Assembly: GCF_900170035.1 (NCBI RefSeq)
Contig: NZ_LT828558.1
Coordinates: 1 to 64,000 of the forward strand
Direction of reading: 5' to 3'
Length of the DNA stretch: 64,000 bases
Source of the DNA: Desulfamplus magnetovallimortis
GTDB lineage: Bacteria; Desulfobacterota; Desulfobacteria; Desulfobacterales; Desulfobacteraceae
A program made the translations under genes and the position numbers. The notes beneath the pieces were generated by a model, which saw nothing but the letters and a program-made list of their open reading frames with translations, did not search any database and was not told the DNA's origin. Numbering within the stretch: the first letter of the stretch is position 1; each line of letters begins with the position of its first letter. Positions 11,751-50,332 of this stretch are shown here, in pieces.

Positions 11751-11802
11751 ATTAAAGTATGGTCTCATATTTTTGGAATATTGACAATACTTGTTGTGGG
11801 GG

Positions 11803-13593
11803 ATGACCATAAAAATTTCAGCTTCGCACCGGGACCTGCTTAAACTTTTGGGGCAACATTGGCAGAGGCTTTTTTTTGCAATGATTTGCATGCTGCTTGT
11901 GGCAGCTACAACTGCTGCATCTGCGTATCTTGTTAAGCCTATGCTTGATGATATTTTTGTAAATCGCAACAGATCCGGTCTTTTAATTATTCCGGTCGCA
12001 GCAATCCTTATATTTTTTATAAAGGGAATTGCTGCTTACGGACAGCAGTACTGGATGAGTTATGTGGGTGAGCAGATTATAAAGGAACTTAGAAATTCCC
12101 TTTATGATCACATTATAGAGCTTCCAATATCATTTTTCCACAAGGAAAAAACAGGTGTATTGATGTCACGTATTACCAATGATGTCAATATTGTCAAAGC
12201 AATGGTCTCCACTGCTGTTACAAGCCTTCTGCTTGACCTTTTTACTGTGGTAGGTTTGACTTGCGTGATTTTTTATATGGACTGGAAGCTTGCAGTGGGT
12301 GCTTTTTTGATTCTTCCTGCTGCATTTTATCCTGTTGTGGCATTTGGCAGGCGTGTGCGCAGATTCAGTACAGGCTGTCAGGAGGCAATGGCTGACCTCA
12401 GCGTTTTTTTGCACGAGACCTTTTCCGGCAGTAAAGTTGTTAAAATATTTACCAGAGAAGCATATGAAAAAGATCGTTTCAGGTGCAAGACCGAAACTCT
12501 TTTTCGTCTTGAGATGAAATCGGTTATATCAAAGTCCCTATCTTCTCCTGTTATGGAGTTTTTTGGAGGTCTTGGTATTGCTTTTATCATCTGGTTCGGG
12601 GGTTCACGCGTTATAAGTGGCGAATCAACAACTGGTACTTTTTTCTCTTTTCTTACTGCTGTGATGATGCTCTATGACCCTGTAAAAAAATTGACAAAAC
12701 TTAACAATACACTTCAGGAAGGGCTTGCTGCTGTTACACGTATTTATGATATAGTGGAACGCGAGTCTGAAATTGTGGATAATGAAGACGCTTGTACGCT
12801 TGAAAATGGGCCTGTTGGTGTAAAGTTTGACAATGTATCCTTTTCATATGATGGGAGAAGAACAGATTGTTCTCTATCTGACAAAGGGGATTCCCTTGTA
12901 CTTCGTGGGATTAATCTTCATGCTAATCCAGGTGAAGTCATTGCACTGGCTGGTATGAGCGGTGGAGGCAAAACATCCCTTGTGAATCTGATACCCAGAT
13001 TTTATGATGTAACAGAAGGGCGTATTGTGATAGAAAAGGGTGGGGTTGAGATTGATATTCGTAATATTTCTCTTCACTCTCTTAGAAGCAATATTTCCAT
13101 TGTAACCCAAGAACCCATTCTTTTTAATGAAACTGTAATGGAAAATATTCGTTACGGAAGAGAGAGTGCTTCAAATGAAGAGGTTGTAGCTGCTGCCAGG
13201 GCAGCATTTGCCCATGATTTTATCATGGGGTTTCCCAAAGGTTATGATACTGTTACAGGGGAGCTTGGCAGTCGCCTTTCCGGAGGAGAAAAGCAGAGAT
13301 TGTGCATTGCAAGGGCACTTATAAAGGATGCCCCAATTCTCATCCTTGATGAGGCAACATCCGCCCTTGATGCCGAGGCTGAAAAAATTGTACAAAAAGC
13401 CCTTGGTAATCTTATGAAGGGAAGAACATCATTTGTAATTGCTCACAGGCTTTCAACCATTCAGCATGCCAACAGGGTTATTCTCATTAATAAAGGCCAA
13501 ATAGTTGAGCAGGGTACCCATGATGAGCTTATGCTGTTAAAGGGTGACTACTTCAAGCTTCAAAATATGCAGCACAATCCTTCTGATGATTGA
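11803..13593 (+). CDS. msbA: Lipid A export ABC transporter MsbA
   Basis: A half-size ABC exporter (about 597 residues) that flips lipid A-core across the inner membrane. The N-terminal ABC_membrane domain has six predicted helices. The nucleotide-binding domain shows Walker A AGMSGGGKTS, the Q-loop ISIVTQEP, the signature SRLSGGEKQRLCIARA, Walker B APILILDEATSALD and the switch His in SFVIAHRLS. A short insert (RRTDCSLSDKGDS) lies just before the A-loop/beta region. The frame also allows TTG at 11791, but ATG at 11803 is preferred, with a G-rich stretch right before it. It is paired divergently with waaA. Confidence 0.93.
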   Translation: MTIKISASHRDLLKLLGQHWQRLFFAMICMLLVAATTAASAYLVKPMLDDIFVNRNRSGLLIIPVAAILIFFIKGIAAYGQQYWMSYVGEQIIKELRNSLYDHIIELPISFFHKEKTGVLMSRITNDVNIVKAMVSTAVTSLLLDLFTVVGLTCVIFYMDWKLAVGAFLILPAAFYPVVAFGRRVRRFSTGCQEAMADLSVFLHETFSGSKVVKIFTREAYEKDRFRCKTETLFRLEMKSVISKSLSSPVMEFFGGLGIAFIIWFGGSRVISGESTTGTFFSFLTAVMMLYDPVKKLTKLNNTLQEGLAAVTRIYDIVERESEIVDNEDACTLENGPVGVKFDNVSFSYDGRRTDCSLSDKGDSLVLRGINLHANPGEVIALAGMSGGGKTSLVNLIPRFYDVTEGRIVIEKGGVEIDIRNISLHSLRSNISIVTQEPILFNETVMENIRYGRESASNEEVVAAARAAFAHDFIMGFPKGYDTVTGELGSRLSGGEKQRLCIARALIKDAPILILDEATSALDAEAEKIVQKALGNLMKGRTSFVIAHRLSTIQHANRVILINKGQIVEQGTHDELMLLKGDYFKLQNMQHNPSDD

Positions 13594-35573: not shown

Positions 35574-36068
35574 TTAGATGCCTAACCACCCTAAAACACC
35601 GTTAATCAAGCCGGCCGGCTTGTTACTTTCAGCTTCAGAATCATCTGATGTCATGCTTTTGAGCCGTGTAGTCATCAATTCGATAAGTTTATCTTTTATG
35701 ATATCGCGAATTTTAGGTGGCAATTCCTGGAGCGAGTTACTACTCAACTGCATTACCATCACATCACTACATGCTGTTACATTGGCAGAACGTGGCTTTC
35801 CGGTAAGATAACTCATCTCTCCGAAAATATCTCCGGGGTTTAAAATGGTTACGATTTCATCGGGTGAGTTATTAAATGTGACTTTTGCTGTACCTTTGAT
35901 TAAAATGAAAAAAGAAGTACTTGCAGAACCTTCTTTGATAAGAATGTCATCTTCTCCAAAATAATCAAAAATATAATCTATACGACTTGAAAGATAACTC
36001 ATATCTGATCTGGATAGAGTTGCAAACAATGGAATAGAGGAAAATAACTCATCAAGAAAATATCCCAT
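35574..36068 (-). CDS. Cyclic nucleotide-binding domain protein
   Basis: A 164-residue protein that is essentially one Crp-type cNMP-binding domain without a DNA-binding helix-turn-helix. It has LFATLSRSDMSYLSSRIDYI, GDILIKEGSASTSFFILIKG-like beta strands, and the phosphate-binding cassette LNPGDIFGEMSYLTGKPRSA. Such stand-alone domains act as sensors or localisation modules. A GGAGAATC site precedes its ATG. It is in the same orientation as the large block upstream but separated by repeats, so co-transcription is uncertain. Confidence 0.85.
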   Translation of the reverse strand: MGYFLDELFSSIPLFATLSRSDMSYLSSRIDYIFDYFGEDDILIKEGSASTSFFILIKGTAKVTFNNSPDEIVTILNPGDIFGEMSYLTGKPRSANVTACSDVMVMQLSSNSLQELPPKIRDIIKDKLIELMTTRLKSMTSDDSEAESNKPAGLINGVLGWLGI

Positions 36069-36151
36069 GTGATTCTCCTTTAAAAATATTTTGATCGTTT
36101 AGAAAATGATGCTCAGAGTGTTTTTGTTTTTCAGGCGTCTTATTTCGTAAA

Positions 36152-36187
36152 GTGTAAAGTACTTCTGGGATGATATGAAGGATGTCT
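36152..36187 (+). repeat. Partial family C end
   Basis: AAAGTGTAAAGTACTTCTGG followed by GATGATATGAAGGATGTC matches the right end of the 106-bp element. The left half cannot be recognised. Confidence 0.6.
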
Positions 36188-36190
36188 TTT

Positions 36191-36320
36191 TTTACAGTGA
36201 AAATGACGATCATTTTTATGGTTGGGGGTTATTGATACACAATCATGCCCATTTAGCGTGAAAATGACGATCATTTTTATATTTGGGGGTGATTGATACG
36301 CAATCAATCATGCCCGTTTA
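36191..36320 (-). repeat. Repeat family A, two tandem 65-bp copies, inverted
   Basis: Units 36191-36255 and 36256-36320 each read GTGAAAATGACGATCATTTT, then GGGGG(T/G), TTGATAC and CATGCCC(A/G)TTTA. They are the reverse complement of the pair at 13605-13734. Confidence 0.85.
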
Positions 36321-36389
36321 AGGGTAAAGAGATATTATCACTATTATAAACTGAAATCTACTATTCTTGATGAATATCCTGCCCTTTCC

Positions 36390-38366
36390 TCAATACGCAA
36401 GACGGCTAAGTGATTTTAAAATAAGTGCAAAACCCATGGCAAACATGCCGGTAAGCCCCATGCCGCATGAAAATCCAGCTAAAAGCACAGGTGCATATTG
36501 TCGCCATTTTGCTCCATATCTTTTGAGGAAAAAATATCTTCCAAGAAGAGCTCCGATAATCTCAAGTATAATGCCGTGGGGTGTACTTTGTCCTAATCCC
36601 CTGACAACACCGTAGATCAAAAGTATGGGAAGGCCAAAGAAAGAGAGTAGCATGTAGGTGACAACTCCGAATCCCATTCCCGAAAGCACATAAGTTCCAT
36701 TCAAGGCCTGGTAGAAAAGTGAATTCCCTTCAATTGTTGAGGTTTGCATAAGAAGGGTATTGAGTGCCTGAAGATGCCACATCTCTTGGGCATATGGATA
36801 GCTTCCGGAGGGGACAGGGGCAAGTTGCCATATGAACTGTGAAAATAGAAGGCTTGCAATCATGACAACCGGAAAGACAAAGAATTCTGATTTTATTATA
36901 CCTTTGATTGAGGTTCCGGTAAGTTCAATCTGGCGGAACTGGACAGCAGTTTCTCCATAGTTGTGTATGGGGATAGGGGCATACCAGATTTCAATGCCAT
37001 GGTATCCGAAATAACGGGAACCTGCAATAAAACTTGCTTCCCTTACAAGGGGGAGATTTACAAACTGGCCGGCAACTCCCTCCATTCTGGCAGTGATATA
37101 TGAGATAAGAGGGGTGTATATAAAGCCGTAGGCCAGGAAAAATCCCCATGGGAAATTCGGGACAAGCCAGAGACACAGCCCCACATAGGAGAGGGTGGAA
37201 AATATGTATATGGCAATGGATATCCAGAAGCTGAAATCGCCCCTGCCTTCTGGTGGGTTAAACAGATCTTTGAAATTTATACGGTTTTTTCTGCTGTGCT
37301 TTAATGATCTTATGACTGACCATATTCCAATGATTCCAATGGCAAGCCCAAGACCGATTCCAAAGCTCATGTAAAAATCAAAGTTGTTGGCAAAAACAGT
37401 GTCAACAGTGCCCATTCCTTCATGCCAGCGGTGAAGAATACCGTTTTTGTGGAGAATTGGGTTTAAAATAATGGTTATTATAAGCCCTATCAATCCGCCA
37501 ATCACTGCCCAGAATGGCAGCACCATTCCAATGAAAATAAGCCCCATGTCAAGCTGGATTCCTGTTGCAACAGCAGGAAGAATAGACTCTGTGTGACGTG
37601 TCAGCTCCACCCAGGGGATAGGGATCACGCTTACGGGCTCTGTAAATATAAGTCCAGAGATAACCGGCAGAAGCACATAGATTGCCCCGAATGCAAGGCC
37701 TGTCACTCCACCCACGGAAAATACCCGCCATTTCCATCCTGAAGCCTTTTCTTCACGGGATTCGGCAAGTGCCATGGTGCCAAGTGCTCCCACTGGTGCC
37801 ATGGGAAAGGGGAGTTTTTCAAGGTCGGAGGTGATGCGATAGAGTGCATACCCAAGGCCGAAGTGATCAATGCGCTGTATAATCTGGGAACCCACAAGCA
37901 AAAGTATGGGAATCATCCAGTCCCTGTGGTAGAAGGTGCGCTCCAGCATTGATTGCGATTCAGCTCCTGGGGCAACCCATTCCGGAATGAACTCGCTTAA
38001 TCCCAGCATCATTGCAGCATCGGACTGTACAAGATACTGGTTCCACAAAAGCCCCTGAAAAGGTGATGCAAGTGCTGCTCCTGCCATATAATAGAGAAGA
38101 AAAATCTCCTGCTGTTTCAGCTCCTGCTGACTGCGCTTTGCGATTTCCGCAAAGAGAATAATGGTTACCCATCGGGCAGCAGGGCCTATTCCTGCTCCAA
38201 GTACAAGTTGCAGGTACATGCTTCCCGGCATCATGAGGAAACCTATAAAAATGGCGCCTATTATTGTTTTCCAGCCAAAGCCCTCTTCAAATTTTGTGGG
38301 GGGCTGAAGAAGATTTCTATACTCATCCAGCTCTCTATCTTTGTACATAAAAGGTCTGCTCTCCAC
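36390..38366 (-). CDS. Polytopic membrane protein, OPT-like
   Basis: A 658-residue membrane protein with about 14 predicted helices. Helix segments include TIIGAIFIGFLMMPGSMYLQ, MGLIFIGMVLPFWAVIGGLI and VTYMLLSFFGLPILLIYGVV. The general look, with repeated glycine/proline-rich helices and an early PGS motif, recalls the oligopeptide transporter (OPT) superfamily or the related DUF6784/DUF6785 proteins; I cannot place it more precisely. The start is GTG at 38366, or ATG at 38348. It is 15 bases downstream of a second large membrane protein gene, and the two probably work together (inference). The C terminus faces a repeat-rich gap. Confidence 0.7.
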   Translation of the reverse strand: MESRPFMYKDRELDEYRNLLQPPTKFEEGFGWKTIIGAIFIGFLMMPGSMYLQLVLGAGIGPAARWVTIILFAEIAKRSQQELKQQEIFLLYYMAGAALASPFQGLLWNQYLVQSDAAMMLGLSEFIPEWVAPGAESQSMLERTFYHRDWMIPILLLVGSQIIQRIDHFGLGYALYRITSDLEKLPFPMAPVGALGTMALAESREEKASGWKWRVFSVGGVTGLAFGAIYVLLPVISGLIFTEPVSVIPIPWVELTRHTESILPAVATGIQLDMGLIFIGMVLPFWAVIGGLIGLIITIILNPILHKNGILHRWHEGMGTVDTVFANNFDFYMSFGIGLGLAIGIIGIWSVIRSLKHSRKNRINFKDLFNPPEGRGDFSFWISIAIYIFSTLSYVGLCLWLVPNFPWGFFLAYGFIYTPLISYITARMEGVAGQFVNLPLVREASFIAGSRYFGYHGIEIWYAPIPIHNYGETAVQFRQIELTGTSIKGIIKSEFFVFPVVMIASLLFSQFIWQLAPVPSGSYPYAQEMWHLQALNTLLMQTSTIEGNSLFYQALNGTYVLSGMGFGVVTYMLLSFFGLPILLIYGVVRGLGQSTPHGIILEIIGALLGRYFFLKRYGAKWRQYAPVLLAGFSCGMGLTGMFAMGFALILKSLSRLAY

Positions 38367-38381
38367 TTTTGATTGTGATGA

Positions 38382-40694
38382 TCAACCAGGCAATACCTGA
38401 TAGCTGTTATGGCTGAAAAGCCCTGCAAACGCCCATATGCCACCCATCAGAAAATCTCCGATTATTAATCCTATGAAAAAGTAGCGAACTTTCCTGAAAA
38501 TAGTCACACCACCATAACGTATGCAGATGGTGTTGAAAAACCATCCAATAAAAAAGCTCACCCAGAGGATTCTCATTGCGGAACTGTAGGCCGTCAGGTA
38601 TCCAAGAGGGTGCAGTGGCCACCAGTAGAATCTTTTGTAGCATATCACGAGAATCATCATGACAAGGGCACCAGCTATGGAAAATATCACTATCCACTCT
38701 CCGGCCGGGTTTGGATTATCAATAACCTGAAATATTTTTTCATATACTGAAAATGTTGTACGGGCTGCCCACTCCATCTGAAGACCCTGTAGTCCATATT
38801 TGTGGCAAAGTGCAAGCATGGCAGTCAATGATACAATTATAGATACTGGAAGCACAAGAAGGATGCCTGCAATTATTATGCGTCTTGATCTTATCTGTTC
38901 ATGTATCTTTGCAGCATGGAGAAGGGAAGGCATCAAGGATTCTCTGAGGTCAAGAAAGAGCATTTTCTGCATTACCCCTGCAATCAGGATACCTGTTGAT
39001 GTAAAAAATCCAGGGCCGAAAAATGCAATAATACCATCTATTGGAGCCGCAGTAATTGTGAAATAGGCAACTCCTCCCTGGGCAATGATTCTGGTTGATA
39101 CCAGCATTACCATGAAAAAAGCACCCATAACAAGTATGGCTGCTCCCGGGGTCATACCAAACAATATACACCATATTATTAATGCAGCTATACCTGCAAC
39201 TCCTCCCCATGCAGAAAGGGATGCATTGAAAAGTTCCGGATTATCTGTTGCATCCTTTATGGTGGGTGAAGGTTTTGATATATTCACTGATGGAGTTATA
39301 ATGTTCTTTGAAGAGATAAATCTCGATAAGATCCTTGTCAGGAAAGATGTTGATTTAATATTGGAAATGCCCTGTAAAAATGTTCCTTTTATGTGGGTTC
39401 TTGAAAGCCAGATAATAAAAATAAAAAATACTCCATAGGCTCCTATCATCTGTGTCTCTTCAGGCAGTGTTAAAGTTGGTCCGAAGGTTGTTCCAAGTGA
39501 AGAGGAAGGAATATTGTATCCCATTACAGCAAGAAGGCCTGATAGAAGGCCACATAAAAGAAACATGAACCAGAAGCTGAAGGATATCTGGCGGGATGTT
39601 ATAAATGCAAAACCTATGAAAGCAGGATAAAAGTATAACTTTAGTTTGTGAAAGCCTGCAAAAATACCATATTCAGGAAAATATGGTCCTGCCAGCACCA
39701 GGGTGGGAATCTCGGGAACAGATGGAAAATAGAAGTGAAAGCCGTTCAGTGTATGGAGGAAAAACGGAATCATAAGGCCGGCAAGCAGGAATCCGTCTGA
39801 AAAAAAAGAGAATATGGCCTGTCTGTCCAGAGCATCACATAGAGTCCGGGGTACACTAAGAAGGGGAAAGTTCATGTTTTCATTCTGCACCCACTGGCGG
39901 CTCAGAACATTGATCATGCATAGCATCACCCAGTAGCAGAGCATAATAAATATACCCCATAGCATAAGCGGTGTTAGCCATGTGTGCCAGGGGATCTGTT
40001 TGATTACGGAAAGCCAGTTCATATCCTGCCCATGCTTAAGACCGGTATAAAGAAGATTGACCGAGTCCATGGAATCTGGATATAGACTTTTGGGCAAAAG
40101 TGGCTGTAAAATATCTTTCCAACGATTTTCAACAGTTGCAAAACGCAGTGGAACCGTAAGGTTAAAAAAGAATGTTCTTGCAAGTCCGGTGTATGCAATG
40201 CCTGAGCCTGTTACCATTAGTATCCAAGATAGAAAAAGCTCTCTTCCGGTAAAAATAGAGGGCGATTTTTTGTGTGATATCATTTTGCCCAGAAGTGCCG
40301 TAAAAAGGGTAAGCCATATGAAAATAAAAAAAGGTGCAAGGGGAAAATGGCCGCCGCCAAGTGGCGTTGCATTTCTGAAGGCATTGTTGAAAGGGGTTAC
40401 AGCACAGATAACTGCTGAAAAAAAAAGTCCTATAAACACTGCCCGTAATCGTATGGGATGAATTTCTTTACCAGAGGTAGTGTCTGAAGCTTTTATCCCG
40501 TGGGAATAATCCTGTTCATTAACATTTTCAGAAGTGATAGAAGCATTCTCAGAAGTGACAGAAGCATTCCCAGAAGTGATAGAAGCATTCCCAGAAGTGA
40601 CAGAAAGATTTTCAGAAGTGATAGAAACATTCCCAGAAGTGACAGAAACATTTTCAGAAGTGACAGGTGTTGGGCATGAAGGTTTGGTATTCAC
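38382..40694 (-). CDS. Polytopic membrane protein, DUF6785-like
   Basis: A 770-residue protein with a repetitive soluble N terminus (residues about 10-60, seven-residue units such as SVTSENA) and about 14 predicted helices after residue 78. Segments include RLRAVFIGLFFSAVICAVTP, GGHFPLAPFFIFIWLTLFTA and GYNIPSSSLGTTFGPTLTLP. The body resembles DUF6785/DUF6784-type membrane proteins found in several anaerobic phyla, with unknown substrates. Its ATG overlaps the stop of the 1783-residue fusion gene by four bases, so the two are translationally coupled. Confidence 0.72.
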   Translation of the reverse strand: MNTKPSCPTPVTSENVSVTSGNVSITSENLSVTSGNASITSGNASVTSENASITSENVNEQDYSHGIKASDTTSGKEIHPIRLRAVFIGLFFSAVICAVTPFNNAFRNATPLGGGHFPLAPFFIFIWLTLFTALLGKMISHKKSPSIFTGRELFLSWILMVTGSGIAYTGLARTFFFNLTVPLRFATVENRWKDILQPLLPKSLYPDSMDSVNLLYTGLKHGQDMNWLSVIKQIPWHTWLTPLMLWGIFIMLCYWVMLCMINVLSRQWVQNENMNFPLLSVPRTLCDALDRQAIFSFFSDGFLLAGLMIPFFLHTLNGFHFYFPSVPEIPTLVLAGPYFPEYGIFAGFHKLKLYFYPAFIGFAFITSRQISFSFWFMFLLCGLLSGLLAVMGYNIPSSSLGTTFGPTLTLPEETQMIGAYGVFFIFIIWLSRTHIKGTFLQGISNIKSTSFLTRILSRFISSKNIITPSVNISKPSPTIKDATDNPELFNASLSAWGGVAGIAALIIWCILFGMTPGAAILVMGAFFMVMLVSTRIIAQGGVAYFTITAAPIDGIIAFFGPGFFTSTGILIAGVMQKMLFLDLRESLMPSLLHAAKIHEQIRSRRIIIAGILLVLPVSIIVSLTAMLALCHKYGLQGLQMEWAARTTFSVYEKIFQVIDNPNPAGEWIVIFSIAGALVMMILVICYKRFYWWPLHPLGYLTAYSSAMRILWVSFFIGWFFNTICIRYGGVTIFRKVRYFFIGLIIGDFLMGGIWAFAGLFSHNSYQVLPG
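40525..40670 (-). repeat. 21-bp coding tandem repeat
   Basis: About seven units of 21 bases (seven codons, consensus SVTSENA/SITSGNA) encode the low-complexity N terminus of the 770-residue membrane protein. The units differ mainly by G/A changes (TCAGAAGTGA/TCCCAGAAGTGA). Confidence 0.85.
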
Positions 40695-43600
40695 ATATCC
40701 TCCATTTTTGTCGTTGGTTTTGTGATGTCCTGATCTCTTTGCTCATCCTGAGAGCTGCTTGTTTTATGAGATGCCTGAGAGCTGCTTGTTTTATGAGATG
40801 CCTGAGAGCTGCTTGTTCTATGAGATACCTGAGAGCTGCTTGTTTTATGAGAACCCTGCGAGTTGTTTGTTTTATGAGATATGGGATCTGGCAGCGGGGT
40901 TGGAATGTTTCTGTTGCTTTGTTCGTCAAGGGAGCGCCATATGAGAAGCTGCTTACGCAGTTCAAATAGAAATCGTTTGTTCAGACGAAGCCAGATGTCT
41001 GCTTCACCTGATTCTCGTTCTATTTCAGTTTTTATCTGAAGGTATGTTGAATCTGTCATGGATTGAGTAAATGTGATTGTAATCTTCTGCATCATGCCAA
41101 GATCAAAAGGGGCAAGCCATATTCGGCTTACTATTTTTTTATATTTGTGTGCCTCTGTTGAATGTAACCATGAATGTTGATTGGGATAATTTTCAGAACA
41201 GTCATATTTAACTTCTCCTGTTGAAAAAATGCCGTGTGAGTAATCCTGATGCTCTCTAAACCAATTGTATAAAAAAACTGAAATACTTTTGTGTTCATGC
41301 ATTTTGAGTAAAAACGGCAGTGTTATTTCCAGGCAGTTGCCTTTTGGTTCAGGTAGTTTCCAGGTTTTGTTTACATCAGGGATTGCAATTCTTGCAGCCA
41401 TTTTTGAAGGATATATAACAGATATCATGACGACTGCAATTACAAGAATCATTGCCCCTGCCCCTGCTATGGATGAGTAGTTTACAGTTATTCCTTCCCA
41501 CATGGGCGTGTTTGCAAAAAAATGTGCCGAAGCCTGGGCTGCAAGATAGCCAAGCACAACGCTTATGACTGCAAAAGCCATTGCCTCTGCAATGAAAAGA
41601 AACGCTACATGGTTGGGTGCAAGTCCAACAGATGTGTAGATGCCGATTTCCCGTTTTCGTTCATGTACGCTTGATATCATTGTGTTAAGTACAATCATTA
41701 TTGATATAAGAACTGGTACCAAAATATTTGGTACACCGCTGTAGTTTATGCTGTCATTTGCGTTATAGACAAAGGAGCCATCTTCCGTTCCTGTGAAAAG
41801 AACCATTTTAAAACGATCGGTTACTTCCCTTGCAAGTAGCTCAACAGCTTTTGATGAATCAATTGTCTTTGGTGAATCAACAGCTTTTGACGGAAGACTT
41901 TTTTTCTCTGATTGGTCTTTAAATTGCAGGTCAGAACTGGTTTGTTTAACATTGCCGCCTGTAATAGGAGTACCTGTAATAGGAGTACCTGCAAATCCCT
42001 TTAGTTTGCCCCCATATGCAAGAAGGGTTTTAGCAGGTATAATAACGGTTTTTTCAGTTGGAATATGGGTATATCTGCTCTCAAAAGAGGAAATATCCTC
42101 TCCTGACTCCAGAGCTTCCATCTCCACCTCCGTGAGATCCTGTGTTGTTTCATCGGGAAAAATGGCAGGAGTCATTATTTCGCCATCAAGATCTGTAATG
42201 GAATTAAAGATTTTGGGATCAAAAATGCCTTTGACACTGTATGGAGTTCCCCTTATGAGAAGTGTGTCTCCTGTGGCAGCGGAGAGTGAATCTGCCATTG
42301 GAAGGGGAATTATGACAACATTTTTATCATCAGCATCAAACCATCTGCCTTTAACAAGAATACGATCAATGGCAGTTACAAGACTCTCATCAGAGTCAAA
42401 GCCGACTATTGCGCTTGCCTGTGCTGTTTTATTTGTATGATTCCATGAAGTATTAAGTTCTTTTATGACAGATATAAGAGGTGCAGAACTTCTCTTGTGA
42501 TTCTCTAACCAAACCCTTGGCACAATAACAGCTTTTTCTGAAAATGTATTTTTTATGACCCCAAGTGATTCATGGGGAAAATCCTTCCAGTTAAGTTGCT
42601 TCATTAGAAAACCATTGTACCCTGATGCGCTGTCAAGCCTTGTATTGGTGTGCAGTCGTATGGATTTTACAGAGGTAAATCCCATGATTGTAAAGGTCAG
42701 GATAACAAGTGTTGTGCATGTTAATGCCGTTCTTGTGCGTCGCCGTTTAAGGTTGCTTACTCCAAGATGGAAGGCTGCTGTAAATGCCTTTAAACTGCTT
42801 ATTTCCTCCTGGCGCATATGGGAGGTTTTCCTCTGTATCAGAACCATTTCACGTTCAAATCTTAAAAAAAGGATCATGGAAACAACTGTTGACAGGCCAA
42901 TAATAAAGAATGCAAGTATGATTACAATTGGAGAGTAAGCAAGCTGAAATGCAGGATGAACATTATATATAATGGTAATCTGAATTATGAGTATGGTGAT
43001 GAATGAGATGATCCTTTTATATATATTGGCAAAACCAAAGAGAAGTCTCTCCATGCAAAATGCAAATGGAACAAATAGTGCGATATAAAAAAGTACACCA
43101 AACAGCACATCCTTTTGTGTTTTTTCAACATCTTCATAAACCTTTGATGCAAGAGCCCAGGATGCTGTGGCAGCAGCCTGGAATTTGTCATACTTCATTT
43201 GTTCAAGGGCAGACTCTGCCGTCTTTAAATGGAGGGTACCTTTGTTTTGAAGTTTTCTTATGGATGCATTAAAAATGCCGTGACTTTCAAGGGTATCAAC
43301 GCGTGGCGTTATAAGGTTCCACATGTCAGTTGCAACATGAAAGGAAGTGTTATTTATGGCTGGCCATTTTTCTGTAATGTAACCTGTGCCCTGGGGCTTT
43401 TCAGGTGAAGCATTGGTTAGGATAAGCTTTTTTTTTAAAACTGAATCTGAAAGGGTAAGTTTGATAGGGGTTCCAGGTTCTGTGAAGATCGAACATATTG
43501 TTGAGCTTCTTGTATCAATCCTGCTGTACCAGTATTTCAGGGGAAGTGCGTCGCGGCGGCCGTCAAAAATATCAATTTTTGTCATGTAGTTGAAGTTGCC

Positions 43601-46042
43601 GGGTTCCATGAGGTTGAAAATAGTTGTCTGTTCCGCATTGAACATTATGATATCAGTTGACATCTCCTTTCGGTTCATTTTCAGGCGGTAGGCTGATTTT
43701 CCGGTCTGTTTTTTGTCAATTGCAAGCTCCACCCTGCCGTCAGATTCATTGAAACGGTAGCCCTCAATTATCACTTTGTCCAGAACATGTTTTTTGTCTG
43801 CAACTCCTTTTATAGTGAAGCTTCCGGTGGTGTCGGAAATTGCATAGTAGTTGCCCTGGCCCTGGGATGCAAATATTAGGGCATCTGTTGCAGGGTGAAC
43901 AGCAAAAAGCTCTCCGTGAAGCAATCGTTTGCATCTCCCTGTTATTGTGGCAAATCCGTTCCTGGGGTTCTTCATTTCAGGAATCACGGGAATATTGCAA
44001 AGTTCTGCAATGATATGACATATTTCAGAACTTTGGCGTGCTGCATATCTGTTGTTAGTGTTTTCCGGGGTGTCAGAGGGAGTTCCCCAGTTGGAGCGTG
44101 CATCATTGAGGGTTGCAAAGGTAAAACCAGGCATTCCGGCAAGTGCCGTGACTTCTCCACCAAGGGCAGGTCTGTCAGGAAAATAACTTTGCCAGGGTGT
44201 GAGGCGATTGGGTCTTAAAGTCTCCTGGTAGAGATGTGGCAGGCCAGTTGATTTTGCAAGTAACATTGCGCTGTTTTTAAAAATGGAGTTAAGGTAGCGA
44301 TAATCCTGGGAGCGGTTAATTCCTGATTTTAAGGGATAGAGCCACCCTTTATCAAATCCTCCAAAACCTGTTCCATGGCTGGAAAGATGAAGTGATATGG
44401 CTGCCTTTATCTCATATTCATCCATTTGGCTTCTGAATGATAATGCATGTTTTATAAGATTTTTCTGCTGTTTCAGATCTTTTTGCCTCTCTTTGAGATC
44501 GGCAAGGGAAAGTTTTATAATCCTTGAAAGCGCAGTTTTCTCCTCAAAGGAGAGGTTAGTGTAATCAGGTGTCCATTCAAGCTTTCTGAGCATCAGCCTT
44601 TTTTCAGCCACGGACTTGATCTTCTCTTTAATATTTGTACCGTGAAAAAACATTCTGTTTTCATGATCGGGGGTGGCCGAAATCTCATTTGGCCATGAGG
44701 GTTTACTGTGAAGATTGTTTTTTCTATTTTTATTGTCCTCCGGAGCAGGAGTGGACTTGGCGTGAAAATATTCCCCATTATTTTCATTGTCTGGGTTGAT
44801 TGTTGAAATCGGCAATGAAGGTTTAGAATTTTTTTTTATGCGAAGGGTTATTAACTCTCTTGAAAGATCATCAACTTCAGTGGCAATACGTCCCGAAATT
44901 GCCTGATTGAAAATGGTTTTTTCTCTTATGCTTTGAAATGTGGCATCATCATCGTTTTTTTTAGATAAGTGATTGTTTAATAAGTAACTGTTCAGGCAGT
45001 GTATTTTATCCTCTACATCTGAGATCTGCTCCTCAAGTTCACTCTTTATATTTTTAATAACCTTTTTTTTGGTACCAAGGCTCCAGACCATCTCCCGCCA
45101 CCCTGCAAGGGCAAGCTTGTGGCCTTCGGTGGCAATGAGCATGACAGATCGTGAAGGTGGGTTTTTCTGCAAAACCTCTGCAAGATCATAAAGCGTATTG
45201 ATGCTGCAACTCTGATCTGAACCTGAGTCAGGAGGGACAAATGCTTCAACAATAATCATCTCACCGGAAAGTTGAGCATTATTGCCTTTTATTATGGCGT
45301 AGTGATTTTCTGCTGTTTTTTGTTTCCAGGCAGCTTTAGACTTTATGGTTACATGTAGATCGGCAAGGGTCTCTATTTCTACAGACTCAATTGATGCAAT
45401 ACCTAAAAGTTTTTCAAGTCTGTTTTTCTCCATGCGGAACATGGGAAAGTTGAGGGGCGTAACTTCCCTTTTATCCTTAAATGTCCAGCCTATAGAGTCC
45501 CCAGGGTCATAGAAAATAAGTGCAGATGCTCCAAGGTTAGCAGCGTTAAGCCAGTTCTTTCCGGAGTTTATATCCATAAGCACAATGGCTTTTTTGATAT
45601 TCTGGTGGTTGAACATTTTCAGCTCACCATTTCCTGCAAATACAAGATGCCCCTCTATTCCTTCCGGAGGGGTTGATTGGGGAGAAATTGCATTGTAATG
45701 GAAAGGTTCTATGGGAAAGGTTAGGGGGGGGATATTACAGGTTTCGTAAGGGGTAGCTGGTGTTCCGTTGTTTGGAACCCAGGTATTAGGAGCTAGAGTA
45801 TGATGGTGGCGTTGTGTTTTTCTGTGGGGTGTTATTGTTATTGTGGAGTTATCTGTTTCAAGTGCCGGAATTTGAAAGGGATAAGTCTGAACTTCATATA
45901 TACCAGCAAGCATTTTATGGAATGAATTTTTTTCATCTGCATTTGATGTGCTGGTAAAAGCGAATAAAGATAGAAAAATAATTATGAAAATCAGCAGTTC
46001 ATTCTGTACACAATAGATTTTTCTGGTCAATGGGGTTTCCAT
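40691..46042 (-). CDS. Giant fusion: M28-peptidase-like ectodomain + FtsX/MacB-type ABC permease
   Basis: A 1783-residue membrane protein. An N-terminal signal/anchor (residues about 13-30) is followed by a PA-like segment (IVLMDINSGKNWLNAANLGA) and an M28-peptidase-like domain split by a long coiled coil (about 330-530). The second half of the peptidase fold shows HLSSHGTGFGG and GMPGFTFATLNDARSNWGTP. The usual first metal His and the Glu pair are not conserved (IIVEAFVPPDSGSDQ and ATEGHKLALAG), so it is probably a pseudo-enzyme. Several helices at about 1000-1090 precede an FtsX permease core with KRRRTRTALTCTTLVILTFT and ISSVHERKREIGIYTSVGLA, ending IYPSKMAARIAIPDVNKTW. A 220-residue cytosolic tail ends in nine-residue repeats. 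It overlaps the kinase gene by 16 bases. Confidence 0.82.
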   Translation of the reverse strand: METPLTRKIYCVQNELLIFIIIFLSLFAFTSTSNADEKNSFHKMLAGIYEVQTYPFQIPALETDNSTITITPHRKTQRHHHTLAPNTWVPNNGTPATPYETCNIPPLTFPIEPFHYNAISPQSTPPEGIEGHLVFAGNGELKMFNHQNIKKAIVLMDINSGKNWLNAANLGASALIFYDPGDSIGWTFKDKREVTPLNFPMFRMEKNRLEKLLGIASIESVEIETLADLHVTIKSKAAWKQKTAENHYAIIKGNNAQLSGEMIIVEAFVPPDSGSDQSCSINTLYDLAEVLQKNPPSRSVMLIATEGHKLALAGWREMVWSLGTKKKVIKNIKSELEEQISDVEDKIHCLNSYLLNNHLSKKNDDDATFQSIREKTIFNQAISGRIATEVDDLSRELITLRIKKNSKPSLPISTINPDNENNGEYFHAKSTPAPEDNKNRKNNLHSKPSWPNEISATPDHENRMFFHGTNIKEKIKSVAEKRLMLRKLEWTPDYTNLSFEEKTALSRIIKLSLADLKERQKDLKQQKNLIKHALSFRSQMDEYEIKAAISLHLSSHGTGFGGFDKGWLYPLKSGINRSQDYRYLNSIFKNSAMLLAKSTGLPHLYQETLRPNRLTPWQSYFPDRPALGGEVTALAGMPGFTFATLNDARSNWGTPSDTPENTNNRYAARQSSEICHIIAELCNIPVIPEMKNPRNGFATITGRCKRLLHGELFAVHPATDALIFASQGQGNYYAISDTTGSFTIKGVADKKHVLDKVIIEGYRFNESDGRVELAIDKKQTGKSAYRLKMNRKEMSTDIIMFNAEQTTIFNLMEPGNFNYMTKIDIFDGRRDALPLKYWYSRIDTRSSTICSIFTEPGTPIKLTLSDSVLKKKLILTNASPEKPQGTGYITEKWPAINNTSFHVATDMWNLITPRVDTLESHGIFNASIRKLQNKGTLHLKTAESALEQMKYDKFQAAATASWALASKVYEDVEKTQKDVLFGVLFYIALFVPFAFCMERLLFGFANIYKRIISFITILIIQITIIYNVHPAFQLAYSPIVIILAFFIIGLSTVVSMILFLRFEREMVLIQRKTSHMRQEEISSLKAFTAAFHLGVSNLKRRRTRTALTCTTLVILTFTIMGFTSVKSIRLHTNTRLDSASGYNGFLMKQLNWKDFPHESLGVIKNTFSEKAVIVPRVWLENHKRSSAPLISVIKELNTSWNHTNKTAQASAIVGFDSDESLVTAIDRILVKGRWFDADDKNVVIIPLPMADSLSAATGDTLLIRGTPYSVKGIFDPKIFNSITDLDGEIMTPAIFPDETTQDLTEVEMEALESGEDISSFESRYTHIPTEKTVIIPAKTLLAYGGKLKGFAGTPITGTPITGGNVKQTSSDLQFKDQSEKKSLPSKAVDSPKTIDSSKAVELLAREVTDRFKMVLFTGTEDGSFVYNANDSINYSGVPNILVPVLISIMIVLNTMISSVHERKREIGIYTSVGLAPNHVAFLFIAEAMAFAVISVVLGYLAAQASAHFFANTPMWEGITVNYSSIAGAGAMILVIAVVMISVIYPSKMAARIAIPDVNKTWKLPEPKGNCLEITLPFLLKMHEHKSISVFLYNWFREHQDYSHGIFSTGEVKYDCSENYPNQHSWLHSTEAHKYKKIVSRIWLAPFDLGMMQKITITFTQSMTDSTYLQIKTEIERESGEADIWLRLNKRFLFELRKQLLIWRSLDEQSNRNIPTPLPDPISHKTNNSQGSHKTSSSQVSHRTSSSQASHKTSSSQASHKTSSSQDEQRDQDITKPTTKMEDM
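40755..40880 (-). repeat. 27-bp coding tandem repeat
   Basis: Four to five units of 27 bases (nine codons, consensus ASHKTSSSQ) at the C terminus of the 1783-residue fusion. They lie less than 100 bases from the 21-bp repeats of the next gene across the ATGA overlap. Confidence 0.85.
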
Positions 46043-47571
46043 GCAAGCACTTCTGATATTTTTGCAATCGAAAATGGTTTTTTGATATAGGCATCTGCTC
46101 CCTGTTCCAGATAGCCCTGTGCCTCTCCATTAAGTGCATAGCCGCTGCATATTATGATTCTGGCATTGGGTTTTTCATTTTTCAGAAGGGGCAGCAATTT
46201 TTTAGCTGGCATATCCGGAAGAATAAGATCAAGCAGTATAATGTCTATTTGGCCATGGTAGTTTTCTGCAATGTGAATTGCTTCGGTTGCAGTGCCTGCA
46301 CTGAGAACATGATAGCCAAGGATATCAAGAATTGCAAAGTTGACATCCATGACCATTTTTTCATCTTCAATTACAAGAATTGTGCCTTTTCTTCTTTGTG
46401 GATCTCCATGTTCCAGAGATTGTAATGATTTTTGTTCGTCATCAGTAATAGCAAGTGGGAAAAATGTGGTGACGGTTGTACCTTTGTCAGGTTCTGACTC
46501 TATATTGATCCAGCCTTTATGATGCTTCACAATGCCAAAAGCTGCGGCCATTCCCATGCCTCGTCCCTGAAATTTGGTGGAGAAAAAAGGCTCCATTACC
46601 CTGTGCCTTGTCTCTTCATTCATTCCTGTACCATTATCACTTATTTTAAGAGATGCATGTGCCCCGGGCTTAAGTCCTGGGTGGTTGAGAATGTTTGATA
46701 TGGAGACACGGTGAGTATCAAGTGTAATTGTGATTTTGCCATTATCCTTCAGGGCTTCGCAGGCATTGGAGTATATTGCAGAGAAGAGCATCTCCAGTTG
46801 AACCTTGTCCAGATTAACAGAAAGCTCTTCTTCACAGATATTGAAAACAGTATTGCACTCGTTTTGTTTTTCTGGGTCATTCAAGATATTCTGTTGCTGT
46901 TTTTTTAGGAAGTCAGTCAGGGAGATGGGGGAGTTGCGATGTTTTCCACCCCTTGCATAGGTGAGAAGCTGTGTGGTAAGGCGAGTCATTTTTTCAATGG
47001 ATTTTTTTATCTTGCCGGATCTGAGTAGAAGCTTTTCTTCGCCTGAATAGTCCATCTTCAGCAACTCAATGTTGCCAAGTATCTCTGCAAGGGCGTTGTT
47101 AAACTGATGAGCTATACCGCCTGCCATGGTTGAGAGCGCTTCAAATTTATGGAAAATTTTTTCCATGTTATGTACTGCCTGTTCTGTTTTGGCAGCAAGT
47201 TTAAGAGTCTCAAGCTTTTCAAGGCACTTTGCAACACGGGCACACAAAATAGATGGTTCGGCAGGTTTTACAAGAAAATCATCTGCACCAAGACGCATTG
47301 CGTCAACAGCACACGAAAGTTCCCCATGTCCTGTGAGCAGCATGACCATGGTTTCGTTGAAGGTGTGTTTTATTTTTTTAAGAAGTGTCAAGCCGTCAAT
47401 TTTATCCATTACAAGATCTGTAACGACAAGATCAAATGTCTGGTGCTGGATAATTTCAAGGGCTTCTTCGCCGCTGCTGGCGGTTGTGATACTATAACCT
47501 TTTTGTTTGAGCAGAACTGCAATGGCATTTAGAATAATTGGCTCATCATCCACAAGCAATATTTTATTCAT
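46027..47571 (-). CDS. Hybrid histidine kinase: REC-HisKA-HATPase-REC
   Basis: A 514-residue soluble signalling protein. The N-terminal receiver (residues 1-120) has the phospho-Asp in FDLVVTDLVMDKIDG and Lys in DFLVKPAEPS. The kinase core has the H-box MAGGIAHQFNNALAEILGNI, an N-box SNACEALKDNGKI, and G-boxes SDNGTGMNEE and GRGMGMAAAFGI. A second receiver at about 395-514 has IDIILLDLILPDMPAKKL and YIKKPFS. There is no membrane or sensor domain other than the first REC, so its input comes from another phospho-donor. It overlaps the giant fusion gene by 16 bases, tying signalling to the transporter. Confidence 0.9.
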   Translation of the reverse strand: MNKILLVDDEPIILNAIAVLLKQKGYSITTASSGEEALEIIQHQTFDLVVTDLVMDKIDGLTLLKKIKHTFNETMVMLLTGHGELSCAVDAMRLGADDFLVKPAEPSILCARVAKCLEKLETLKLAAKTEQAVHNMEKIFHKFEALSTMAGGIAHQFNNALAEILGNIELLKMDYSGEEKLLLRSGKIKKSIEKMTRLTTQLLTYARGGKHRNSPISLTDFLKKQQQNILNDPEKQNECNTVFNICEEELSVNLDKVQLEMLFSAIYSNACEALKDNGKITITLDTHRVSISNILNHPGLKPGAHASLKISDNGTGMNEETRHRVMEPFFSTKFQGRGMGMAAAFGIVKHHKGWINIESEPDKGTTVTTFFPLAITDDEQKSLQSLEHGDPQRRKGTILVIEDEKMVMDVNFAILDILGYHVLSAGTATEAIHIAENYHGQIDIILLDLILPDMPAKKLLPLLKNEKPNARIIICSGYALNGEAQGYLEQGADAYIKKPFSIAKISEVLAWKPH

Positions 47572-47743
47572 TTTTTATAATGTACCTTTGGGGTAATGTG
47601 TCCAGTGCCCGAGCATGGAGAAGTTGAAATCTTCAACCTTATACGATTATGGAGTAATCATGTTGTATGAGTCATCATATTCGTAAAAATTACCGGATAG
47701 AAGATGTTCCGCCGGACAGGAAAACCAGCTTAAGATACATGCC

Positions 47744-47805
47744 ATGCATTTCCGGTGGTGTCAAGTGCTACATTGGTACAACTTATAATTCCACCGGAAA
47801 TGCAT
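47744..47805. other. Perfect 15-bp inverted repeat between HTH-REC and kinase genes
   Basis: ATGCATTTCCGGTGG (47744-47758) is exactly complementary to CCACCGGAAATGCAT (47791-47805), with a 32-base loop. No T run follows in either direction, so it is not a simple terminator. It could be a regulatory hairpin, operator or mobile-element remnant. Confidence 0.7.
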
Positions 47806-47830
47806 TTTAAATGATATTTATGTAATATAA

Positions 47831-48463
47831 TTATGCTTTAGATGCTGCATAGGCTCTTCTGCGTTTGGCTCTTATGTGATCCTTTATCCAGTGCAGATCC
47901 CTGAGAAGATCTTCTGCCTTCTCAACCAGTTCTTCGTTATCCACCGGTTTTTCCATAAGGTCATCTGCACCGGCATCAAGAATTTCATCTTCATTTTCCT
48001 GTGATGCATGACCTGTGAGAATAAGGATTTTGATATGGGATGTTGAGTCATTTGTTTTGATGAAACGGCATGCCTCAAAGCCATCCATGTTGGGCATCAT
48101 AAGGTCAAGTATAATAAGGTCGGGATTGAACTGTTTGGCCTTTACACCTGCTTCAAAACCATCCTTGGCAGTTTCAACTTCAAATGTATTTTCAAGGAAA
48201 AGTTTCTCAAGACCTTTAACCACAAGCTCATTGTCATCAACAATAAGAACCCTTGCCGGTGCATCAATCTGCCTGATCATCATTTTCATTCCCTGGGCCT
48301 TCAGGGATTTTTCAAGGTCCGACTTAATTATGCGGTGATGTCCACCAGGAGTGACGAAAGAATTTATTTTTCCTGCTTTTACCCAACGCCACATGCTCAT
48401 ACGTGTAACACCACAATATTTTGCTGCCTGGGGAATTGTCAAAATGTCTGGATTTTTACTCAT
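47831..48463 (-). CDS. MerR/excisionase-type HTH fused to a receiver domain
   Basis: A 210-residue response regulator with an unusual order: a DNA-binding domain first (TIPQAAKYCGVTRMSMWRWV and PGGHHRIIKSDLEKSLK, residues 8-55), then a receiver (RVLIVDDNELVVKGLEKLFL, phospho-Asp in DLIILDLMMPNMDG, Lys in DLMEKPVDNEE). A basic C-terminal tail follows. An AGAGGATAATT site precedes the ATG. It lies between the ABC ATPase gene and the hybrid kinase gene and is the likely transcriptional output of the kinase (inference). Confidence 0.88.
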   Translation of the reverse strand: MSKNPDILTIPQAAKYCGVTRMSMWRWVKAGKINSFVTPGGHHRIIKSDLEKSLKAQGMKMMIRQIDAPARVLIVDDNELVVKGLEKLFLENTFEVETAKDGFEAGVKAKQFNPDLIILDLMMPNMDGFEACRFIKTNDSTSHIKILILTGHASQENEDEILDAGADDLMEKPVDNEELVEKAEDLLRDLHWIKDHIRAKRRRAYAASKA

Positions 48464-48613
48464 AATTATCCTCTCTTTTTGTTTTTTTGGTGGTTTAATA
48501 CCACTTTGGTTAAAAAATACTTTTATTTACTATAAGCAACTTGGTTTAATCTGAAAAGTTTGGTTTGATCTGAAAAAGTCAGATCGTGATAATTTTAAGG
48601 AATGAGTACGAAA

Positions 48614-48678
48614 TAAACACTCATGCTTGTGTATCAGTCACCCCCAAATATAAAAATGATAGTCATTTTCACGGTAAA
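48614..48678 (+). repeat. Repeat family A, single copy
   Basis: It runs from TCATGCTTGTGTATCAGTCA to CACGGTAAAA, with AATGATAGTCATTTTC inside. It lies 37 bases from the ABC ATPase stop codon. Confidence 0.82.
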
Positions 48679-48714
48679 AAAATCATTACTTATACCTCAT
48701 TGGTTGTTCATGGT

Positions 48715-49467
48715 TTAGTGTCTATTGCCAATGGAGATCTCTCCAAGTGATATTGAAAGCTCGTCTCTGTTTTCTATCTTATCCACCTGCCCATCCCTTA
48801 TCCAGACTACCTGGTCTGAAACATTGAGCATTTTAAAATCGTGGGTGGCGGAAATAATAGTTATGTTTTTTTCCTGACTTAATTGCTGAAGAAGAGATAT
48901 GATCTCTTCTCCTGTCCTGAGATCCAGGTTTCCAGTAGGTTCATCTGCCAGAATAATACCTGGATCGTTTGCAAGCGCCCTTGCAGCAGCAACCCTTTGT
49001 TGCTGTCCTCCTGAAAGCTCGGAAGGTTTGTGGTTATATCTTGATTCAAGCCCCACCATCTTAAGCAGGGTCATGCCCCTGTCATTTGCATCATCACTGT
49101 TCACTCCTGCAAATGTCATGGGCAAGGTAACATTTTCAAGGGCAGTCATCAGCGGAATCAGGTTGAATGTCTGGAAAATATAGCCGATTTTTCTGCATCT
49201 CAACCATGCAAGTTCATAGGCATCAAGCTGGGCAATGTCCACTTCATCTATGAAAACCTGACCGGATGTTGGTTTGTCCAAGCCGCCTATCATGTTGAAG
49301 AGTGTACTTTTGCCTGAGCCTGAAGGTCCCATGATGGAGATATATCTGCCAGCAGTAATATCAAGATTTATTCCCTTTAATACCTGTACTTCCATTTTAC
49401 CCATATGGAAATTTTTGGTCACATTGGATACGCGTACGATTTTGCTCTCTTCATGATTTTCGGGCAC
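48715..49467 (-). CDS. ABC transporter ATPase, LolD/MacB type
   Basis: A 250-residue nucleotide-binding subunit with Walker A GPSGSGKSTLFN, Q-loop IFQTFNLIPL, signature ELSGGQQQRVAAARALANDP, Walker B GIILADEPTGNLD and the H-loop TIISATHDF. The EPTGNLD wording and short length are typical of LolD/MacB/FtsE-type ATPases, which drive FtsX-family permeases by mechanotransmission. The start is GTG at 49467. It follows the small FtsX permease gene (145 bases) and is expected to serve that and the giant fusion protein. Confidence 0.92.
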   Translation of the reverse strand: MPENHEESKIVRVSNVTKNFHMGKMEVQVLKGINLDITAGRYISIMGPSGSGKSTLFNMIGGLDKPTSGQVFIDEVDIAQLDAYELAWLRCRKIGYIFQTFNLIPLMTALENVTLPMTFAGVNSDDANDRGMTLLKMVGLESRYNHKPSELSGGQQQRVAAARALANDPGIILADEPTGNLDLRTGEEIISLLQQLSQEKNITIISATHDFKMLNVSDQVVWIRDGQVDKIENRDELSISLGEISIGNRH

Positions 49468-49612
49468 TTTCCATATTCCTTACTTGAAAAAAGAGTTGGG
49501 AATGGGGTTTAAATAACGTGACCGTTTATATCCGTGAGCAGTGATTCCCGCCCGCTTTTTTAAATCAAAATGGGGAAGTTATTTTGTACTCATTCCTTAA
49601 ATCGGGAATTCA

Positions 49613-50332
49613 TCAGTTCTCCATTCTCATTGCTTCAACAGGCTCCATACGGGCTGCAACAATAACTGGATAAATCACTCCTGCAAGGCTTAGGATGCAT
49701 CCTGTTATGAAAGCTTTGCCCATTGACAGTAAAATATCCTGAAGCGGAAGTGTATATATTACTGTGGAGCCGTATTGAAAAAACGATGTCAACAGTGCAA
49801 ACAATGCTCCGAAAACTGCACCTGCTGAAGCACCAGCTCCTCCCTCCATCAGCGCCTCCAGCATGAAAAGCCTTACAATAAAATGGTTCAGTGCCCCAAG
49901 GCACTTCATGGTTCCGATCTCCCTGAATCTTTCAGTCACAGCCATCAACTGGGCATTAACAATTCCAACCACACAAACAAGCAGTGAGAGAGAGACAATC
50001 CATTTTTGTTTGGGGCTGTTCTTGATTGCCCATTTATTTGTCTGTGTTGTCTCTTCTTTTGTATCAGGTGCAGGATCATATCCTGCGGCAGTTAGTTTTC
50101 TTTGCAGATCGGCATTTTCAAGGGATGCAAGGCTATTTGCAATATCACTTGTGACCTGTGTAAAACATAAAAAAGAGACAGCAAGTACAAGGCTTATGGT
50201 TGTTATAATGGATCGTAAAAAACGTGCCTTAATGCTTCTGAAAGCAATCCCGACAGATTTTGTAAAAGGCATTACCACATGATGCCGGGTTAATTGTTTT
50301 TTTTGTCTTAAAAAGGATGTATTGTTCTCCAC
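49613..50332 (-). CDS. Compact FtsX-family ABC permease
   Basis: A 239-residue permease with an N-terminal helix at KARFLRSIITTISLVLAVSF, a very short periplasmic loop of about 70 residues in place of the large MacB-type domain, and a C-terminal three-helix block. The conserved coupling region is VTERFREIGTMKCLGALNHF and the last helix ends GVIYPVIVAARMEPVEAMRM. The start is GTG at 50332, about nine bases after GAGG. It pairs with the downstream LolD-type ATPase. The short loop suggests the partner fusion protein supplies the large extracytoplasmic part (inference). Confidence 0.85.
   Translation of the reverse strand: MENNTSFLRQKKQLTRHHVVMPFTKSVGIAFRSIKARFLRSIITTISLVLAVSFLCFTQVTSDIANSLASLENADLQRKLTAAGYDPAPDTKEETTQTNKWAIKNSPKQKWIVSLSLLVCVVGIVNAQLMAVTERFREIGTMKCLGALNHFIVRLFMLEALMEGGAGASAGAVFGALFALLTSFFQYGSTVIYTLPLQDILLSMGKAFITGCILSLAGVIYPVIVAARMEPVEAMRMEN

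Follow-up and report, generated by a model that had tools for sequence, protein, structure and literature searches.

A five-gene ABC/FtsX locus of Desulfobacterota with a giant pseudo-peptidase–permease fusion: a candidate type VII envelope system

Introduction

Type VII ATP-binding cassette (ABC) systems act in the control of cell division, in the sorting of lipoproteins and in efflux. According to PMC5985334 and PMC12646458, MacB-type systems spend ATP on periplasmic work, and the former describes how ATP binding zips a stalk and moves the periplasmic domains, with no passage of substrate through the ABC protein. PMC5985334 also states that all type VII members known to its authors carry a Porter-type periplasmic domain between transmembrane segments TM1 and TM2, and PMC12646458 proposes that the type VII system YbbAP-TesA hands hydrophobic molecules to a periplasmic hydrolase. 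Here we analyze a 64,000-nucleotide stretch of contig NZ_LT828558.1 of Desulfamplus magnetovallimortis (the window, meaning the whole stretch at its full length), in which eight minus-strand genes occupy positions 35,574–50,332. Five of these form the core of the locus: a small FtsX-type permease, an ABC ATPase, a 1783-residue fusion protein, a DUF6785/DUF6784 membrane protein and a 658-residue membrane protein, TM658.

LolCDE resembles this set in joining one LolD-type ATPase to two FtsX-type permease subunits. Unlike LolCDE, however, the present set scores below the equivalog cut-offs, one of its permeases is the 1783-residue fusion with its putative pseudo-M28 head, its small FtsX lacks a periplasmic domain of MacB size, and it includes two additional polytopic proteins. 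With MacB, YbbAP-TesA and FtsEX the locus shares an FtsX C-terminal domain, a MacB-like periplasmic core within the fusion and a coupling motif in both permease halves. It differs from them in that no core gene is of the MacA, TesA or EnvC type by Pfam (such genes were sought in the core only), and the combination of an OPT-fold protein with TM658 was not met in the literature found. With the terms tried, our literature search returned nothing that joins FtsX with M28 or that treats an uncharacterized FtsX in Desulfobacterota, and neither DUF6785 nor DUF6784 is named in any paper found; for FtsX together with an oligopeptide transporter in sulfate reducers, the one paper found concerns biofilm methylation. 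The parts are of known kinds and, within the searches made, their composition and strict co-occurrence appear to be undescribed.

Results and discussion

Five genes recur together and in one order

We surveyed 297 genomes spread over the phylum Desulfobacterota and refer to the 20 with a long relative of the fusion, D. magnetovallimortis included, as carriers. The fusion, the DUF6785 protein (over the Pfam cut-off) and TM658 occur in the identical 20 genomes, with one copy each of DUF6785 and TM658 per carrier; a 21st DUF6785 match, in genome G001, falls below the Pfam cut-off. The survey genomes are related to one another and all co-occurrence figures are plain counts. Since families f2, f24 and f49 each hold both carriers and non-carriers, the co-occurrence is not solely a matter of shared ancestry.

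Fourteen of the 20 carriers have the complete order small FtsX, ATPase, fusion, DUF6785, TM658. Among the 19 carriers other than D. magnetovallimortis, the ATPase adjoins the fusion in every one and the small FtsX adjoins the ATPase in 17. Gene order was also compared across 102 distinct loci, many of them cut by contig ends, and all five core genes stand in one order in 61. Restricting the comparison to named loci with room for the whole run (8.6 kb or more of sequence upstream of TM658; 53 loci pass), we found the five in order in 47, and two of the six incomplete loci possess all but a detected FtsX. These named loci come from a TM658 scan of named genomes that yielded 242 relatives, the best 80 of which were kept. 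The titles of those 80 are nearly all Desulfobacterota, Desulfo- genera or Deltaproteobacteria, and include Desulfatibacillum alkenivorans DSM 16219, Desulforhopalus singaporensis and Desulfogranum marinum; the remaining 162 may include other phyla. The corresponding scan of named genomes with the fusion as query gave no match.

In the window the kinase gene that precedes the fusion overlaps it by 16 bases, the fusion overlaps the DUF6785 gene by 4, and 15 bases separate DUF6785 from TM658, while the gaps upstream of the kinase are loose (145, 251 and 259 bases). The DUF6785 start meets the fusion stop as GTGA, with GGAGGA ahead of it, and the median gap at this junction is −4 in 80 distinct loci (open reading frames (ORFs) taken at their longest start). 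Along the core order the median gaps are 37, 6, −4 and 54 bases. The true DUF6785/TM658 gap in the window may be 33 bases, with TM658 starting six codons later, because 8 of 13 TM658 relatives (with script-chosen starts) begin at a Met corresponding to window residue 7.

A preliminary description of this stretch, made from its letters alone, had listed all eight ORFs with their strands, domains and linkage (16, 4 and 15 bases), and the ORF coordinates and Pfam assignments agree with it throughout. It had further proposed that a compact FtsX, one ATPase, a giant FtsX fusion and two polytopic proteins form a single system, an idea it held would fail if the genes were not found together in other genomes; the set does recur in other genomes, and we consider it very probable that the five core genes act as one system.

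Within the taxonomic family of D. magnetovallimortis the fusion is present in 18 of 86 genomes, the window included, with a few copies partial or split. It was not found in any of the nine other members of the genus, seven of which are less than 90% complete. Horizontal gain of the fusion in this genus was considered and dropped: a quick tree set the window fusion outside its family, and the alternative that grouped it with its family had the better score and was not rejected (approximately unbiased test, p-AU 0.664). We likewise rejected a mobile element as the vehicle of the locus, since tblastn searches of the fusion, DUF6785 and TM658 against plasmids and of the fusion against phages gave no match and no TM658 relative was found in viral contigs.

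The fusion carries a degenerate M28 head on an FtsX permease

The fusion protein consists of a signal or transmembrane segment, a periplasmic head with PA and pseudo-M28 regions, three transmembrane segments, a MacB-like domain, an FtsX permease half and a conserved C-terminal tail that, by topology, is presumably cytoplasmic. Searching with it returned some match in 217 of the 297 genomes, mostly to the common FtsX domain alone, and the 20 long relatives stand well apart (worst E 6.5e-130; next best match outside the set 1.3e-14). In the carriers the fusion is a single open frame of 1587 to 1822 amino acids, spread over 12 families (tool numbering), the frame in G135 being cut by its contig end. 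These single frames rule out an assembly join of two genes, the other outcome on which the preliminary description had said the system idea would fail.

We aligned 19 fusion rows, the window copy and 18 relatives. The FtsX domain PF02687 is present in all 19 (52 bits in the window copy), and MacB_PCD is detected at E 0.01 in seven, the window among them. By profile, the N-terminal part matches the PA-bearing M28 aminopeptidases 2ek8 (4.3e-16, positions 25–315) and YwaD (4.6e-12), and 15 of the 19 rows, the window's row not among them, reach Pfam M28. Unlike those enzymes, the head has lost motifs throughout the alignment: with the register taken from the 2ek8/YwaD alignment, the His of HxD is lost, both residues of the Glu-Glu motif are replaced and the His before TPxDT is absent in 19/19 rows, and all 19 retain the Asp of the bridging motif. 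The tallied His, Glu (of Glu-Glu) and last His are the residues we take to be the M28 zinc ligands. The head is thus best read, from its sequence, as a catalytically dead M28-plus-PA domain, in keeping with the earlier guess of a pseudo-peptidase. The window copy additionally lacks the DRSTG and YD stretches that its aligned relatives keep.

Two repeat features were seen in the window's fusion gene. At 44590–44790 on the minus strand (about residues 434–470) lies an in-frame dispersed repeat of about 75–82 bp that has 43 matches in the genome, itself included, and no similar insert occurs in the 18 aligned relatives. An in-frame tandem array (27 bp x 5) at 40747–40880, encoding part of the C-terminus, is also missing from those 18.

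The small FtsX and the ATPase

The small FtsX passes the PF02687 cut-off with 57.1 bits and its profile matches LolF, YtrF and MacB chains. Its hydropathy plot has four hydrophobic segments, the first two separated by no more than some 50 residues, and it therefore lacks a periplasmic domain of MacB size. The ATPase keeps both Walker A and the signature (LSGGQ). The best-scoring assignments are LolD for the ATPase (236.3 bits; NCBIfam equivalog cut-off 307.75) and LolC/E (lolCE) for the small FtsX (46.1 bits; cut-off 362.45), both below their cut-offs. The coupling motif ERxREI is kept in both the small FtsX and the permease half of the fusion, and the small FtsX profile matches that half with an hhalign probability of 94.5. 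Pairing of this compact permease with the fusion's FtsX half is, in our view, more likely than not.

The two polytopic proteins

An AlphaFold2 model of the DUF6785 protein (residues 67–770) has a predicted local distance difference test (pLDDT) score of 88 and a predicted template modelling score of 0.89. Compared with solved structures, the model resembles barley Yellow stripe 1 (7wsr) with a VIA Z of 22.8 over 554 residues, a root-mean-square deviation of 4.2 and 10% identity; the next unrelated row has Z 5.6, and Foldseek gives E 4.8e-7 for Yellow stripe 1. As modelled, then, DUF6785 has the OPT-type fold of this transporter, but at 10% identity and with no row for Pfam OPT (PF03169) in any of 32 members scanned at E 0.5. 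The window gene carries an in-frame tandem array (21 bp x 7) at 40521–40666, in the part encoding the N-terminus.

TM658 has no Pfam match at E 0.1. It is 69–83% identical to its aligned relatives, which is probably why its predicted model is poor (pLDDT 37), and by best-segment identity it is conserved about as strongly as the ATPase (69–82% vs 69–81%). So strong a conservation, in a protein that matches no Pfam family, suggests that a function still without a name is under tight constraint. Hints of OPT likeness are weak: the TM658 of G073 matches OPT positions 506–620 at 7.9e-4, below the cut-off, hhalign of TM658 against OPT gives E 0.034, and a Pfam scan of 25 TM658 members, the G073 member included, gave no OPT row. 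The idea that TM658 and DUF6785 are themselves related was abandoned after an hhalign probability of 12.6% (E 0.0023) with the first alignments fell to 0.3% (E 0.2) with deeper ones. Of the two OPT/DUF6785-like transporters proposed earlier, the assignment is supported by fold for DUF6785 and no more than hinted at for TM658. A crude hydropathy scan gives 10 segments in each protein, where 14 helices had been ascribed to each. In four loci (L077, L096, L134 and L136) we observed DUF6785 and TM658 behind arginase-like and BamA-like genes rather than the fusion (domains scanned in L096).

A second block of genes and other neighbours

Clustering of flanking ORFs from 106 loci revealed recurrent downstream families: a 206-residue protein with a signal-like N-terminus, of secreted type (48 loci), a 295-residue protein (48), a PqqD-like protein (45), an MsbA-like ABC exporter (29) and a cNMP-binding protein (26). 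Counts for the exporter and cNMP families come from these flanks; the 206- and 295-residue families were searched across whole genomes and occur in 17 and 9 of the 297, respectively, all of them core carriers. A search of the carriers placed the PqqD-like family in the same 9 of 20 as the 295-residue family. All 49 ORFs of the 206-residue family lie on the strand of the core, as do 13 of 29 nearby exporter genes and 9 of 26 nearby cNMP genes. In D. magnetovallimortis the exporter, cNMP and 206-residue genes lie together outside the window, on contig C3 (1113, 147 and 229 bits to their family profiles), and the 295-residue and PqqD-like genes were not found in this genome.

Walker A and the signature of an ABC ATPase usually lie about 100 residues apart. 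Three exporter members (L143, L057 and L144) have 383 to 495 residues between these motifs, so a large insert interrupts their ATPase domain. The window contains another ABC protein gene at 11791–13593 on the plus strand, which is probably not the exporter partner since it scores 270 bits against the exporter family and the contig C3 gene scores far more, 1113.

Of 106 loci, 28 have a glycosyltransferase cluster upstream and 25 have a polysaccharide-deacetylase cluster there (clusters named from one or two scanned members), and further glycosyltransferase, PMT, MatE and SurA/PpiC genes lie near single loci. The glycosyltransferase, deacetylase, PMT and MatE neighbours point to an envelope glycoconjugate.

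Table 1. Positions of the genes and domains of the locus in the window and of the MsbA-like exporter members in their own loci.
Feature	Position	Strand	Basis
Core gene 1, small FtsX-type permease, 239 residues	49613..50332	-	Pfam FtsX PF02687 2.4e-15, hydropathy
Core gene 2, LolD/MacB-type ABC ATPase (ABC_tran), 250 residues	48715..49467	-	Pfam, Walker A and LSGGQ
HTH_17 and REC regulator, bystander	47831..48463	-	Pfam domains, locus comparison
REC-HisKA-HATPase-REC hybrid kinase, bystander	46027..47571	-	Pfam domains, locus comparison
Core gene 3, 1783-residue fusion, MacB_PCD and FtsX C-terminal	40691..46042	-	Pfam, profile matches
Putative pseudo-M28 head of fusion, about residues 100-690 (our delineation)	43973..45745	-	Profiles, ligand tally, alignment
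FtsX/MacB permease half of fusion, about residues 1105-1553	41384..42730	-	Pfam MacB_PCD and FtsX, ERKREI at 1461
Core gene 4, DUF6785 and DUF6784 membrane protein, predicted OPT-type fold	38382..40694	-	Pfam 2.1e-153 and 6.4e-36
Core gene 5, TM658, 658-residue membrane protein	36390..38366	-	No Pfam family; possible start 38348
cNMP_binding protein, apparently not orthologue of the system's cNMP partner	35574..36068	-	Family profile bits
MsbA-like exporter members	L143:9306-12275; L057:12039-14615; L144:10728-13286		

A proposed mechanism and its alternatives

Our preferred reading, to which we assign a probability of about 45%, is that the five genes encode a heterodimeric type VII ABC machine that exports or assembles an envelope compound, plausibly a glycoconjugate; we infer the pairing of the FtsX halves, the direction of transport and the substrate. 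Two copies of the LolD-type ATPase would power an unequal permease pair, made up of the small FtsX and the fusion's FtsX half, to give an inner-membrane mechanotransmitter of the MacB/LolCDE kind with a single periplasmic head. Dead M28 folds are used by nicastrin and the transferrin receptor, and the M28-plus-PA head could likewise serve as a receptor that binds a periplasmic substrate or partner; binding rather than cutting is likely because the enzyme-like head is both fused on and dead. Closing of the stalk upon ATP use would then pass the substrate onward, with DUF6785 and TM658 as membrane transporters that supply it or take it up. The OPT-fold protein encoded in the same run suggests a substrate that is soluble and of peptide or chelate size, or else of glycan type, and a glycoconjugate can be named as cargo only tentatively.

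The second block (the MsbA-like exporter, the cNMP protein and the 206-residue protein, sometimes with the 295-residue and PqqD-like proteins), whether near the core or elsewhere in the genome, may carry out a second step. It is conceivable, though we would not call it probable, that the whole is a two-part envelope machine of Desulfobacterota, not described before, in which the unequal type VII pair with its dead-peptidase head is directly coupled to the OPT-fold protein and TM658 and works with the second, split-ATPase exporter to carry one shared compound across the envelope.

Several observations weigh against these proposals. The tie between the two FtsX halves is drawn from proximity and family logic, and in 2 of the 19 other carriers no small FtsX was found beside the ATPase. 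The core itself is not always intact: four of the 20 carriers (G254, G295, G106 and G073) have the fusion and TM658 at separate places, L040 has SurA/PpiC-type and MatE-type genes between the fusion and DUF6785, and of the six incomplete named loci with room, three have DUF6785 and TM658 with no fusion nearby and one has TM658 alone. As to the second block, searches of the 20 carriers gave no 206-residue gene in 3 and no 295-residue or PqqD-like gene in 11, and the exporter lies on the strand opposite the core in 16 of 29 nearby cases, the cNMP gene in 17 of 26. Most loci, the window among them, have none of the glycan-gene clusters beside them.

Two other functions deserve consideration. The locus could serve uptake, with the dead head capturing peptides or metal chelates, the OPT-fold protein and TM658 importing them and the ABC part acting as sensor or gate. 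M28 folds are generally known to bind peptides, and the nearest solved fold to DUF6785, that of Yellow stripe 1, was solved with an Fe(III) chelate; fold likeness, however, says nothing about direction. The use of ATP for periplasmic work in MacB-type systems, as given in PMC5985334 and PMC12646458, together with the exporter-type ABC protein of the second block and the glycan genes among the recurrent upstream neighbours, makes uptake unlikely in our view. We are similarly doubtful of a LolCDE-like or YbbAP-TesA-like machine for extracting lipoproteins or lipids, in which the giant head would be the receptor and the polytopic proteins would assist as flippases. Such a role would fit the best scores of the ATPase (LolD) and the small FtsX (LolC/E), as well as the proposed handing of hydrophobic molecules to a hydrolase by YbbAP-TesA (PMC12646458), but both scores are under the curated cut-offs, the small FtsX lacks the MacB-size periplasmic domain, and the head has lost its ligand motifs.

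If the preferred reading of an exporting or assembling type VII machine is true, a dead-peptidase receptor fused to a permease widens the range of building parts from which such machines are made. The strict co-occurrence also joins DUF6785, TM658 and the 206- and 295-residue families, all of unknown function, into one testable question.

Signalling genes are local to the window

The preliminary description had counted seven genes in the system and called it signalling-linked, and here the comparison of loci leads elsewhere. In the window 2672 bases, with the HTH-REC and hybrid kinase genes in them, separate the ATPase from the fusion; in none of the other 68 loci does this distance exceed 287, and in the window's own family the ATPase adjoins the fusion in all 13 loci (of 17) whose flank reaches the ATPase. 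A search for the kinase in the 86 family genomes gave some match in every genome and one close relative, 63% identical, in the congener G299; a full-length fusion was not found in that genome, which is 72% complete. Among the loci examined, the two signalling genes are a local insertion and bystanders to the five-gene core. A two-component-regulated system with these genes as functional parts, for which the 16-base kinase/fusion overlap speaks, is accordingly very improbable and is rejected as a general rule, given that one locus in 69, the window itself, has room for both genes, that ATPase and fusion adjoin in 13/13 family loci, and that the one close kinase relative sits in a genome, 72% complete, where a full-length fusion was not found.

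The cNMP_binding gene that lies beside TM658 in the window was also considered as the cNMP partner of the system, and was rejected because it scores 39 bits against the system's cNMP family vs 147 for the gene on contig C3.

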